This document shows, one piece after another, positions 5,982-55,894 of a stretch of 64,000 nt of DNA. A program made the translations under genes and the position numbers. Positions within the stretch are counted from its first letter, which is position 1. Each line of letters starts with the position of its first letter. The notes beneath the pieces are model-generated. The model had not been told where the DNA came from, made no database searches, and saw only the letters and a program-made list of their open reading frames with translations. Source of the DNA: Ancylomarina sp. DW003 (GTDB lineage: Bacteria; Bacteroidota; Bacteroidia; Bacteroidales; Marinifilaceae); assembly GCF_029029505.1 (NCBI RefSeq), contig NZ_JAKJSD010000006.1, positions 186,001 to 250,000 on the forward strand. Reading direction: 5' to 3'.

Positions 5982-6932
5982 TTAATTAGATAAGATTTTG
6001 ATAATTTCCTTGTCTCCTATTTCTTGAGCAACATCGATAACAGTTTGTTTTTTTTCTTTTGTTATGGCGTTTACATCAGCACCTGCACTTACAAGTAAAG
6101 ACAATATATTTAGCACCTGCTTCTTATTATTGGTAAGAATATCAGAGTCTTTGGATAGGTAGTACAATAGAAAATGCAAAGGCGTAAGGTTGTCATCAAA
6201 CATTCTTTGCCGCGTCAATCTAAAGAAGAGCTCGCTGTAAATGGGCATATTAACATCGGCATTATTTTTTATTAATAATTTAACTGCAGCAGGCTTCATT
6301 TTTTGAATGCTTACATGTAGTGCAGTCATACCTTTTTTATCGATAAGATTAATATTACACCCCTTTTTTAAGAGTTGCTTAGTAATTTTCAGTTTCTTAT
6401 CACTTATAGACGCAGCCAGCAAAAGAGGATCAGCAGGATCAGTATATGCCATATATGGATAATTGCTAATGGGTAATTTATGCTCGATAACTTTTGAAAT
6501 AACCTTCCCCATCCATTCGGGTACGTTCGATTTATCAGTATTATATTGCTCAATCCAATAGTTCATCTCTTCTACTTTAGGGTTAAAGCCCCCCTTTATA
6601 AGTAAGCCAATGATATTTATAAAATTTTTCTCTCCCGCCCAGTGTGCGGCTGTTCCATAAGGCGAAATAATGTTTGGATTAGCACCCTTATCAAGTAAAA
6701 ACTGTACCATTTCAACACTGCCAGTACTACAAGCATAAAACAAATAAGGTATCTCATCCTTATCTCCATCAATATTTACTTTGCACTCTAATAAAACTTG
6801 AGATAGACGGTTAACATCACCCGATTTAACAATCTCTTTTATCTCATTATAATTTGGAGATAAAGCCGTACTCTGTGCGAATAGGTTACTTATTTGAATA
6901 AAAAATAAGATGTAAATAATTAGTTTTTTCAT
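5982..6932 (-). CDS. Exported ankyrin-repeat protein
   Basis: 316 residues with a cleavable signal peptide (first 20 residues, ending LFAQ), so it acts outside the cytoplasm. At least five ankyrin-like repeats are readable: IPYLFYACSTGSVEMVQFLL near 62, then AAHWAGEKNFINIIGLLI, DPLLLAASISDKKLKITKQL, MTALHVSIQKMKPAAVKLLI, and a final LTPLHFLL/ADVNAITKEKKQTVIDVA pair. Ankyrin stacks are protein-binding scaffolds; the partner is unknown. Its upstream region carries the 22-bp palindromic repeat (7103-7168). Confidence 0.75.
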   Translation of the reverse strand: MKKLIIYILFFIQISNLFAQSTALSPNYNEIKEIVKSGDVNRLSQVLLECKVNIDGDKDEIPYLFYACSTGSVEMVQFLLDKGANPNIISPYGTAAHWAGEKNFINIIGLLIKGGFNPKVEEMNYWIEQYNTDKSNVPEWMGKVISKVIEHKLPISNYPYMAYTDPADPLLLAASISDKKLKITKQLLKKGCNINLIDKKGMTALHVSIQKMKPAAVKLLIKNNADVNMPIYSELFFRLTRQRMFDDNLTPLHFLLYYLSKDSDILTNNKKQVLNILSLLVSAGADVNAITKEKKQTVIDVAQEIGDKEIIKILSN

Positions 6933-7102
6933 GTATTGAATAATTATAAAAATATAATGTATTGTAACCTGCTGTTTGGAGATGCTTTTTTATTACCCTA
7001 AATATTGGTAGAGAGGAATGACCTTATCAGTCATGGATAAACACAGGATCATTCAGAGGAAAAGACCTTATTCTTTATATCTTTCATCTCTATCAAAATA
7101 AT

Positions 7103-7168
7103 TTTTGATGTACATCATAGTTTAGTTTGATGTACATCAAATCTATTTTTCATGTACATCAAACCTGA
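7103..7168. repeat. Three-copy 22-bp repeat with palindromic cores
   Basis: Three consecutive 22-bp units each contain the core TGATGTACATCA (third copy TCATGTACATCA), at 7106-7117, 7128-7139 and 7150-7161. Core centres are exactly 22 bp apart, about two helical turns. The middle copy extends to the perfect 14-bp palindrome TTGATGTACATCAA. On the minus strand the middle copy overlaps a TAGATTTG (-7-like) box at 7138-7145, in the direction of the ankyrin gene whose start is about 200 bp downstream. This looks like a dimeric-repressor operator array rather than an RNA hairpin, because the cores have no loop. Confidence 0.6.
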
Positions 7169-7204: not shown

Positions 7205-7239
7205 TAAGAAAGCTCTGATCACTAGAGTAGGATCAGAGC
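7205..7239 (-). terminator. Terminator after SPFH gene
   Basis: GCTCTGATC pairs perfectly with GATCAGAGC around a 10-nt loop and, on the minus strand, is followed by TTTCTTA. It lies 21 bp beyond the stop of the SPFH gene. Confidence 0.6.
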
Positions 7240-7259: not shown

Positions 7260-8573
7260 TTATTTCTTACTTGTTTGTAATTGCTTCGCCATAGCTGCTC
7301 CAATTAAACTTTCAAGTGGTGTTCCTCCTTTTTTATCAGAAGTAATAATCATGGTTTCAGGGAATCTGATTTTAGCAATCTCAGCTGCAACCTTTATGTC
7401 ACGATTCAACTCCATCTGAAGTTTCACCTCTGGTGTAATACCTGCACTTACTTTCTTCGAAATCTCGTAAGCATCAGCATCTGCTGTTACTTTCTTCTTC
7501 AGAGAAACTAACTTCTCTGTTTCAAGAGCGATTTTAGCTAACTTTTTATTTGTTTCTTCTTGCTTAAGCTTCGTCTCAATTGCAATAAGTGCCTTTACTT
7601 GCTCCTTTTCTTGTGCGACACGCTCTGCAGCCTTATCACGTTCCCCCTCAGCAATAATACGCTGTTGCGCATCCTTAGCTGTTTCAACTTTCTGTTGTTC
7701 AAGCTGACGTTTAGCCGACTCATCTCTTTGCGCCTCAAGTCTCTGCTTAAAAGTTTTTTCAAGCTCAATATTATCTACAATCACTTGAGAAACAATAATT
7801 TTATTCTCACTCAACTCATGTTTTATACGCTTAGGAATTCCATTTACCAAGACTTTATTCACCTCATAAGAAGTCTGAATTTCTTTAATTCTACGATCAG
7901 CATTCTGAATATCAGCATAAACAGTATCTCTTCTTTCGATTTTCTCAACGGCATAAGCACCTCCTTTTAGCTGCTCTTCAAACACTTGTCTGAAATTCTG
8001 AGCCTCACCAGATATGTAATCCTGAGCGGCAAACATGTAGGCTGTATTAACCAATTGTTCTTTCACAGTTGGCACAATCGTATTATTCACCAAATTACTC
8101 ATCGTTCTAAACTTAACCGCTAAGTTTATAAAACTTTCGGAATCTCTGGGCATTTCAAAACGTGTAGAGACATAACCAGCAGATGTAACCTGATCGATAA
8201 AACGTAAAGGAATTGGCTTCATGATTCCTTCTACCTCATCTTCGTCAATCTCGATATTTTTACCAACCACTTTTACGTCGATAAACTTTTGCCACTTATC
8301 AATCTTAGCAAAACCTCTCCATTTAATTCCTTGCTCCATAACAGCACTCATTTTACCTGTCGGAGAAACCAATAAATAGTTAAAACCTCTATCAGCAAAA
8401 AAGAACATAGAACTCATTAAACTCAATATAATTCCAATCACAATAAGAGATAAACCATGAACATGAGTAATATGATTCATCCATTCGCCACTACCGGACT
8501 TCTTCTCTAATTTCGATATTATCAATGCTACAATTCCTACAAGCAAAGCTATTATCCCTAAAAATGTGGTCAT
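7260..8573 (-). CDS. SPFH/Band 7 domain membrane protein
   Basis: 437 residues. Two hydrophobic segments (about 3-21 and 41-60) separated by a short loop anchor the protein, followed by an SPFH/prohibitin domain (about 65-260), then a long Ala/Glu/Lys/Gln-rich coiled coil (about 265-370) and a short C-terminal cap ending in ESLIGAAMAKQLQ. Such proteins form ring-like oligomers in the inner membrane and scaffold proteases or other partners. ATG at 8573 is preferred over the in-frame TTG at 8594. A terminator follows the stop; no NfeD-like partner gene is adjacent. Confidence 0.85.
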   Translation of the reverse strand: MTTFLGIIALLVGIVALIISKLEKKSGSGEWMNHITHVHGLSLIVIGIILSLMSSMFFFADRGFNYLLVSPTGKMSAVMEQGIKWRGFAKIDKWQKFIDVKVVGKNIEIDEDEVEGIMKPIPLRFIDQVTSAGYVSTRFEMPRDSESFINLAVKFRTMSNLVNNTIVPTVKEQLVNTAYMFAAQDYISGEAQNFRQVFEEQLKGGAYAVEKIERRDTVYADIQNADRRIKEIQTSYEVNKVLVNGIPKRIKHELSENKIIVSQVIVDNIELEKTFKQRLEAQRDESAKRQLEQQKVETAKDAQQRIIAEGERDKAAERVAQEKEQVKALIAIETKLKQEETNKKLAKIALETEKLVSLKKKVTADADAYEISKKVSAGITPEVKLQMELNRDIKVAAEIAKIRFPETMIITSDKKGGTPLESLIGAAMAKQLQTSKK

Positions 8574-8613
8574 AAAGTTTTGTTTAAATTTCAATTATTT
8601 TTTTGATTGACAC

Positions 8614-54357: not shown

Positions 54358-54736
54358 ACACGATAAAATCGTGCGACAGCGAGTATAAAAGCAAAAAATT
54401 AGCTTTTTGATCAATATAAAAAGTTACAATGTTCGAAGAATTGTCTTTTTGCTCATTGTACAAAGTACAAAGCATGAGAAATTGTTTTTTTATCAATACC
54501 AATATTAATAAAGCATGAATAATTGCTTTTTCACTCAATATCAATACTGGCAAAGCACAAAAAACTTATTTTTTACTAAATATCAATAGTGATAAAGCAT
54601 GGAAAATTGATTTTTTAACCAATACCAATATTGATAAAGCCTGAATAATTGCTTTTTTGCCCAATATCAATATTGACAAAGCACAAAATGATAATTTGAA
54701 AAATCAATAAAATCGTGCGGCAGCGAGGCCACGATT
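54358..54736. repeat. 42-bp minisatellite array bounded by 20-bp direct repeats
   Basis: About seven degenerate units of 39-42 bp, with unit starts at 388, 427, 469, 510, 552, 594, 636 and 678 (all +54000); most units begin AAAGCATGA or AAAGCACAA and carry a T-run and a CAATATCAATATTG-like palindrome. The array is bounded by 20-bp repeats that differ at one base, at 54364-54383 (TAAAATCGTGCGACAGCGAG) and 54708-54727 (GGCAG for GACAG). Each boundary also makes a small palindrome (CACGAT/ATCGTG at the left; AATCGTG/CACGATT at the right). No open frame on the plus strand; the minus strand has a phased but unsupported frame. Confidence 0.75.
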
Positions 54737-54820: not shown

Positions 54821-55894
54821 ATGAAAAAGGTAATCTACATAGTTGCTATTCTAAGTCTATTGTTTTCTTGTGGAAAAGAAAAGAGTGTTAACAAAAGTGA
54901 GACAGATAAAAAACTACTGGAAGTCCTGGGGGAATTCCCGGAAAAGCCGAAGCTTTCAATTGACACATTAGAAACAGCAGAATTTAATAATGGGTGGAGG
55001 TACAAAATCAAATATCTTGCAGAAGACAGTATTCCTTCCTTAGGCATACCTCAGGATTGGGTTTTTGCTTATTTATTTGTACCTAAAACTGAATATCGTA
55101 AAAAATTACCCGGAATTGTTGCTATTCATCAAGATGATATAGCATGTCATATTGGAAAATCAGAACCAGCAGGTATAGATGGCGATTCAACAATGTTTTA
55201 TGGCTTAGACTTATTTAATCAAGGCTATGTGGTTATTTGTCCTGATAGATTTTATCATGGCGAGAGAAGATTGCTGTCAAAAATGCATCCTTGGAAACGG
55301 AAAAAAAACATAAATCCGGAAAGAGATTTTCGTCTTCTCGATTATCAGGTGGGCGTTCTTTTTCTACAAGGAAGGACACTATATTCAAAACAAGCTTATG
55401 ATGTATCACGAGCGGTAGATGTATTAACTTCATTGAGTCTTGTAGATGAGGAGAATATTGGAATTATCGGACATTCAGCAGGTGGAAACGTAGTGCCTTA
55501 TGCTATGTTTTTTGATAAGAGAATAAAATTAGGCGTCTCTTCTTGCGGAGTTTTTGATGTTGCCCAAATATTTAAAATGAATGTTCGTCAGCCATTTCCT
55601 TCTTGTATGGCAATACCTGCTTTGGTTAAAAATAATTTAACAACGGCAGACTACTTAAAAAGTATTTACCCCAGAAGTTTACTTTTGACTCGTGGAAAAC
55701 ACGAGTGGGGAAAAGGCGATATAGGTAGTATCACAATGATTGAAGAATTAAGACGTTTTGAAAAAACGTATAATTCTAATGGCGATAAAGGAGATATTAA
55801 AACAATCGTTTTTGAAGAGAATGGAGGAGAACACGCCTTCCCTAAGAATGTTAAAAAGGATGTTTATAAATGGATAGATCAAAGACTAAAATAA
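54821..55894 (+). CDS. Alpha/beta-hydrolase lipoprotein (dienelactone-hydrolase-like)
   Basis: 357 residues with lipobox LFSCGKE (Cys17). The fold signature is ENIGIIGHSAGGNVVPYAMF (nucleophile Ser in GHSAGG, near 217), an oxyanion-side PGIVAIHQDD, and a C-terminal His in NGGEHAFPKNV near 345. The catalytic Asp may be in the LLLTRGKHEWGKGDIG region. It could be an esterase or acyl-peptide hydrolase acting on the cell surface or periplasm. No partner gene nearby suggests a substrate. Confidence 0.8.
   Translation: MKKVIYIVAILSLLFSCGKEKSVNKSETDKKLLEVLGEFPEKPKLSIDTLETAEFNNGWRYKIKYLAEDSIPSLGIPQDWVFAYLFVPKTEYRKKLPGIVAIHQDDIACHIGKSEPAGIDGDSTMFYGLDLFNQGYVVICPDRFYHGERRLLSKMHPWKRKKNINPERDFRLLDYQVGVLFLQGRTLYSKQAYDVSRAVDVLTSLSLVDEENIGIIGHSAGGNVVPYAMFFDKRIKLGVSSCGVFDVAQIFKMNVRQPFPSCMAIPALVKNNLTTADYLKSIYPRSLLLTRGKHEWGKGDIGSITMIEELRRFEKTYNSNGDKGDIKTIVFEENGGEHAFPKNVKKDVYKWIDQRLK

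Follow-up and report, generated by a model that had tools for sequence, protein, structure and literature searches.

Phased palindrome arrays before HU-HIG genes of Bacteroidales and a candidate in-trans reader of one array in Ancylomarina sp. DW003

The array in the window and its gene setting

We analysed a 64,000-nucleotide stretch of the Ancylomarina sp. DW003 genome, referred to here as the window. Its palindrome array occupies the spacer between two minus-strand genes. The gene at 5982-6932 encodes an ankyrin-repeat protein (Pfam) with a signal-like N-terminus (by eye), and on the minus-strand side of the array its start is the nearest of any gene. The gene at 7260-8594, whose 3' end points towards the array, encodes a membrane protein with a coiled-coil-like part that is prohibitin/HflC-like by eye and had no Pfam or NCBIfam match at an E-value of 0.001. 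The flanking ORFs also include an Mrp-type ATPase (Pfam) and a methionyl-tRNA synthetase-like protein (by eye), and no replication or recombination gene was seen among them. A hairpin (GCTCTGATC...GATCAGAGC) at 7212-7239, just past the 3' end of the membrane-protein gene, looks terminator-like by eye.

Three palindromic units, none with an assigned strand, were located at 7105-7118 (TTGATGTACATCAT, one mismatch), 7127-7140 (TTGATGTACATCAA, perfect, with zero mismatches) and 7149-7162 (TTCATGTACATCAA, one mismatch). Their spacing of exactly 22 bp, pointed out in the initial annotation, proved to be real and not a product of chance. The triple-palindrome score at phase 22 was 19 of 21, whereas 100 dinucleotide-shuffled versions of the window reached 17 at most; with between-unit identity added the score was 31, and the shuffles reached no more than 21. 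The same period-22 array was called at this site by Tandem Repeats Finder. We add a degenerate fourth unit to the three described before, at 7083-7096 (TTCATCTCTATCAA, likewise unstranded) and in the same 22-bp phase, in which the outer frame TTNAT....ATNAA is kept but the core is lost.

The array lies upstream of the ankyrin gene, whose start codon is 172 bp from unit 1 and 150 bp from the fourth unit. Any effect on a flanking gene would be expected at the ankyrin gene, since that is the start the array faces. Bacteroidota promoters carry TTTG near -33 and TAnnTTTG near -7. A weak -7-like box directed towards the ankyrin gene was seen by eye on the minus strand at 7093-7101 (TTATTTTG/TATTTTGA); it lies just past the unit at 7105, and not over the middle copy as had been described. 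Elsewhere in the window, five 42-bp tandem repeats (2 x 21 bp) at 54469-54683, each with an inner palindrome like ATCAATATTGAT, precede a hydrolase-like gene at 54821 and may represent another phased array.

A genome scan for TTGATGTACATCAA with up to two mismatches returned 60 forward-strand sites versus 18 for the reversed control, but phasing among them was rare: of the loci L001 to L015, phased units were present only at L001 and at the three belonging to the window array (L002, L005 and L006). Comparison with related species did not reveal a conserved spacer. A DNA search of four congeners did not find the window array and gave no array except those at the HU-HIG promoters of G003 and G004, and among the 56 family genomes searched the array at the ankyrin gene occurred in Ancylomarina sp. 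DW003 only. The membrane protein was matched in two congeners, G001 and G003, where nothing but a spacer separates its gene from mrp and both the ankyrin gene and the array are absent; it had no match in the remaining two. Two congeners encode ankyrin homologs (51% identity), and no array precedes their genes. The initial annotation had held that an unconserved spacer, together with the lack of any other site in the genome, would speak against a regulatory site. The first half of this was borne out; the second was not, since a second array stands before an HU-HIG gene.

A twin array before an HU-HIG gene

The only further array of the window motif found in the genome by DNA searches lies at C13:73025-73082 and ends 85 bp before an HU-HIG gene (G000:C13:73168-73557), whose neighbours look like valS and an NADH dehydrogenase gene (ndh-like). 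The initial annotation had correctly seen no adjacent regulator gene for the window array; the candidate regulator is encoded in trans, by this HU-HIG gene with the twin array at its own promoter. The same arrangement, at equal distance, was found in the congeners G003 and G004 and in the Labilibaculum-group genomes G026, G068, G071 and G072. In Marinifilum an HU-HIG gene is located elsewhere, by a rimO-like gene (by eye), and is still preceded by an array.

The encoded protein of 130 amino acids matches PF18291 (HU-HIG) at 2e-30, with 105.9 bits against a curated cut-off of 26.2, and NCBIfam TIGR01201 (HU_rel) at 1.6e-23. An AlphaFold2 model of the Ancylomarina euxinus ortholog (monomer only, pLDDT 92.2) was predicted to adopt the HU/IHF (DNABII) fold with beta arms plus an extra N-terminal hairpin, and its Foldseek matches were HU/IHF proteins. 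The best structural match to the model was 4fmr (BVU_2165 from Bacteroides vulgatus, E-value 4.8e-05), which however shares 14% identity, has a chain of 234 residues compared with 130, and is listed with no target DNA. HU and IHF kink DNA with a conserved intercalating proline at the arm tip. This proline is absent from the arm of the cognate protein (AEGVDSEELVTRYRI), and DNA bending is therefore not assumed here; some paralogs have a proline near that place.

Array and ortholog showed the same distribution. Strong array matches (best E-value 5.4e-17 or lower) were present in 8 of the 56 family genomes (G000, G003, G004, G026, G066, G068, G071 and G072), and HU-HIG orthologs of at least 80% identity were found in the same eight. 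Both were present in three of five genomes of the window's genus and five of nine of Labilibaculum; the other genomes of these two genera, including G070, which is 63% complete, had neither at the thresholds used. The chance of such co-occurrence, 1/C(56,8) = 7e-10, ignores relatedness, though both genera are split. Of two weak array matches, the one in G012 precedes the HU-HIG gene of that genome and the one in G022 is part of a satellite belonging to a different HU-HIG array. The G066 ortholog matches from residue 38 only, the gene being truncated. At this locus (L099, 3640-5266), the valS-like and ndh-like genes enclose an unrelated ORF in the place expected for the array and the 5' part of the HU-HIG gene. 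Two satellite arrays are kept elsewhere in G066, although its own array is gone.

Private arrays of HU-HIG paralogs and satellite arrays

Other HU-HIG paralogs showed arrays of the same design, with a 22-bp phase and different core letters. Marinifilum array types are near TTRATATATATYAA, TTTACCATGGTRAA, TTRACACGTGTYAA, TTAACGCGCGTTAA and TTAATAGCTATTAA, and Marinifilum flexuosum has three paralogs with three arrays of the core types ATAT, CATG and CACGTG. An array of TTCAGGCGCCTCAA was seen by eye in Marinilabiliaceae JC017, below the score threshold, and a Prolixibacteraceae MAG array had four units with varied cores. With a threshold of 15 of 21 palindromic pairs at phase 22, applied to HU-HIG upstream regions with enough DNA, the array score was reached upstream of 21 of 24 HU-HIG genes versus 0 of 94 other ORFs in the same loci; these 24 loci are orthologs and paralogs and not independent draws. 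L119 and L136 (upstream DNA too short) and L124 (truncated gene, upstream replaced) had been left out before this count. The three loci below threshold were L133, L135 and L137, the gene of the last being itself broken. At the other phases from 16 to 32 the count was at most 8, and at phase 33, one and a half periods, it was 13. An AACTTG/AACTTAGG-like element, resembling AACTTGTAGG or AACTTAGGG, begins 22 bp past the start of the last unit at 16 of these 24 promoters; two of the 16 carry a change in its first five bases.

Motifs diverged along with the proteins. Motif distance correlated with protein distance across 21 loci (Mantel r = 0.60, 0 of 5000 permutations as high) and across 12 less redundant loci (r = 0.41, 10 of 5000 as high), a correlation that still contains shared ancestry and falls once near-duplicates are dropped. 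At close distance, a footprint test was mixed, and the palindromes were not consistently better conserved than the linkers. The fraction of differing sites in palindromes versus linkers was 0.05 versus 0.38 at the aroA site (inflated by one inverted array), 0.02 versus 0.14 at the TPR site, 0.06 versus 0.00 in the Labilibaculum HU promoters and 0.11 versus 0.21 in the HU promoters of the genus Ancylomarina.

A further 41 HU-HIG or HU-family genes were scored, and 11 of them, including genes of Parabacteroides distasonis and Bacteroides finegoldii, had arrays of 21 to 23 bp, whereas the other 30 had no significant array in this range. Twenty-one phases were tried per locus in both sets, and a result of 0 of 200 shuffles is an uncorrected probability. 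One set comprised 31 further HU-HIG genes, three from the same genome and 28 from other families of the class, picked from 82 listed matches and mostly the stronger ones. Eight of them scored best at 21 to 23 bp with 0 of 200 shuffles reaching the score: L138, L143, L169, L182 and L185 (22 bp), L188 (21 bp), and L191 and L195 (23 bp). L145 was best at phase 15 bp, also with 0 of 200 shuffles. Ten HU-family genes in named records, from 15 tblastn records (27-36% identity), formed the other set; three had an array (P. distasonis L228 at 22 bp and L230 at 21 bp, and B. finegoldii L229 at 22 bp, with four units by eye) and seven had none. Two other short HU-HIG genes of the DW003 genome, C12:110983 and C14:51106, showed no significant 21-23-bp array, and its long HU-HIG proteins (L173 to L177) had none upstream. 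Arrays were likewise not found upstream of the HU genes that neighbour DUF4248 in B. finegoldii and P. distasonis (L223, L225, L226 and L227), of two Phocaeicola HU genes (L224 and L231) or of one Treponema HU gene (L232). The four DUF4248-linked HU genes also have a gene for an amidase or a glucosaminidase next to them, and two of them a 'smalltalk' gene as well.

Array copies away from HU-HIG genes, or satellites, kept both their position and their flanking genes in several species (neighbour names are by eye unless annotated). Those of Labilibaculum lie near aroA (four genomes), near a TonB-receptor-like gene (one genome) and beside a TPR-hybrid kinase gene (four genomes; domains checked for one protein). 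In Marinifilum, a satellite with a membrane-protein gene on one side and a gene for a peptidase-like lipoprotein on the other was seen in three genomes (six units in one of them), and another, flanked by a response-regulator gene and a bioB-like gene, in two. The array of a second HU-HIG gene of the DW003 genome (C12:111577) recurs partly at C14:51034 and C6:24843. At G000:C12:110983-111954, two tandem HU-HIG genes have a TTCGCAA....TTGCGAA array between them, and part of that array lies just beyond the 3' end of a related HU-HIG gene at G000:C14:51034-51474. In one Labilibaculum genome (L095, 4957-5014, compared with L035, L093 and L098), the inside of the aroA-site array, that is, the linkers and middle unit, reads as inverted with unmoved flanks, as would follow from recombination between the outer palindromes.

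The P. distasonis L228 array had matches in eight records, its own included, at 18 places, which may include one array counted in shifted register. All five satellites opened were intergenic and scored highest at 22 bp among phases 19 to 25; one lies upstream of a Dabb-family gene and one upstream of a recombination-protein-A gene, and the other three are found between an M48 peptidase gene and argR, between guaA and an integrase gene, and between rsmH and an acyltransferase gene. The sole B. finegoldii satellite opened lies upstream of an AraC-family gene. Some satellites have convergent genes on either side, or the nearest start codon hundreds of bases away.

Candidate reader of the arrays and alternative explanations

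HU is the textbook non-specific nucleoid protein, and to our knowledge neither a DNA target nor an operator array has been published for the HU-HIG family (PF18291, TIGR01201). The descriptions of the PF18291 and TIGR01201 profile matches mention neither. No description of HU-HIG operator arrays was found in the literature searched. PMC11035120 contains the term HU-HIG once, within a protein list. A 2017 Cell Cycle paper reportedly describes new HU/IHF clades. The closest known systems are the DNABII proteins, which share the predicted HU fold, and in E. coli HU has been linked to autoregulation of hupA (cited in PMC3969353). However, IHF sites lack symmetry and HU binds largely without sequence specificity, as opposed to the paralog-specific tandem palindromes at HU-HIG genes, and the cognate HU-HIG lacks the arm-tip proline. 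In Porphyromonas gingivalis, according to PMC3969353, the HU protein PG0121 binds a 77-bp inverted repeat upstream of an operon. This would resemble our case in that a Bacteroidota HU protein binds an inverted repeat, but PG0121 recognizes a single long repeat and prefers certain DNA structures, whereas the HU-HIG arrays consist of phased short palindromes.

We consider it likely that the window array is an in-trans site of the C13 HU-HIG protein, a dimeric palindrome reader that would repress its own gene and also regulate the ankyrin gene. A dimer with the HU fold would read the 14-bp palindrome, and successive dimers would align on one face of the DNA at a spacing of two turns (22 bp), from which we infer cooperative binding. 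At its own promoter, the last unit would span the presumed -33 region, and the promoter-like AACTTG starts exactly one period on. Binding there would block the polymerase, and we therefore favour a homodimer that represses its own promoter and also targets further arrays. The C13 protein may also occupy one or a few other arrays, such as the one in the window, through which it would regulate the exported ankyrin-repeat protein; related HU-HIG proteins would act likewise on their own palindromes. The kinks introduced by IHF are spaced 9 bp apart. An IHF-like geometry was dropped, as the palindrome is of even length and does not match this spacing.

Among the three options offered in the initial annotation, a cooperative same-face site appears best supported on the sequence evidence, by the arrays before HU-HIG genes and the phase kept across families, and the window array itself has its sites in phase, on the same face of the DNA and ahead of a gene. 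An iteron-like site or the relic of an integrated element, already disfavoured, is in our judgement highly improbable. The absence of the ankyrin gene and array from this place in the two congeners with the spacer read would suit such an element. However, no replication initiator gene of the kind expected beside a plasmid iteron was seen next to the window array, nor was a recombination gene; arrays in several species keep their places and neighbours, and viral contigs, searched with one query, gave no HU-HIG relative.

It is also unlikely, if less so, that the arrays are nucleoid or centromere-like sites, at a few of which HU-HIG would nucleate a compact DNA wrap on the chromosome for domain organisation or segregation, with one array by its own gene and incidental effects on nearby genes. 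DNA searches did find few arrays per genome, some satellites, such as that between the response-regulator and bioB-like genes (by eye), lie between convergent genes or far from starts, and a wrap by three phased dimers would be plausible given the modelled HU fold. The fixed distance from array to promoter-like element in 16 of 24 HU-HIG promoters argues against this, as does the placement of the five opened P. distasonis satellites before a gene start or between divergent genes. An intermediate and still low probability goes to a different regulator, whose operators the arrays would be, controlling HU-HIG and a few other genes while HU-HIG itself does not bind. The two satellites that persist in G066 with its truncated HU-HIG would fit such a regulator. 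However, paralogs of one genome have different cores, so one shared trans regulator would not explain the arrays; every HU-HIG paralog would need its own unlinked, co-evolving regulator, and by eye no other gene accompanies array and HU-HIG at both of the genomic locations read (valS/ndh-like and rimO-like).

Our confidence in HU-HIG as the reader of its own array is lowered by several observations. The G066 satellites outlast the truncated HU-HIG gene, which could reflect recent decay or another binder, and satellites between convergent genes or far from a start codon do not fit a simple operator. The HU-HIG genes lacking an array, the mixed footprint and the weaker correlation among less redundant loci lower it as well. 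The role at the ankyrin gene is the weakest link of the explanation, since the array is found there in one of 56 genomes and at 172 bp from the start codon.

A number of the Bacteroidales genomes searched encode several HU-HIG proteins. We give about even chances to the broader view that HU-HIG is a large family of sequence-specific HU-fold regulators, each with its own 14-18-bp palindrome in two-turn arrays, combining self-recognition (autoregulation) with dispersed targets, core and protein co-evolving and paralogs free of cross-talk. The arrays suggest that these little-studied HU-like proteins read specific DNA sequences, and they make the question of HU-HIG recognition directly testable. 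If this is true, HU-HIG proteins without known targets would become predictable regulators, with the target readable from the DNA before the gene, and the arrays seen in marine and gut Bacteroidales would provide a natural set of protein-DNA specificity pairs.
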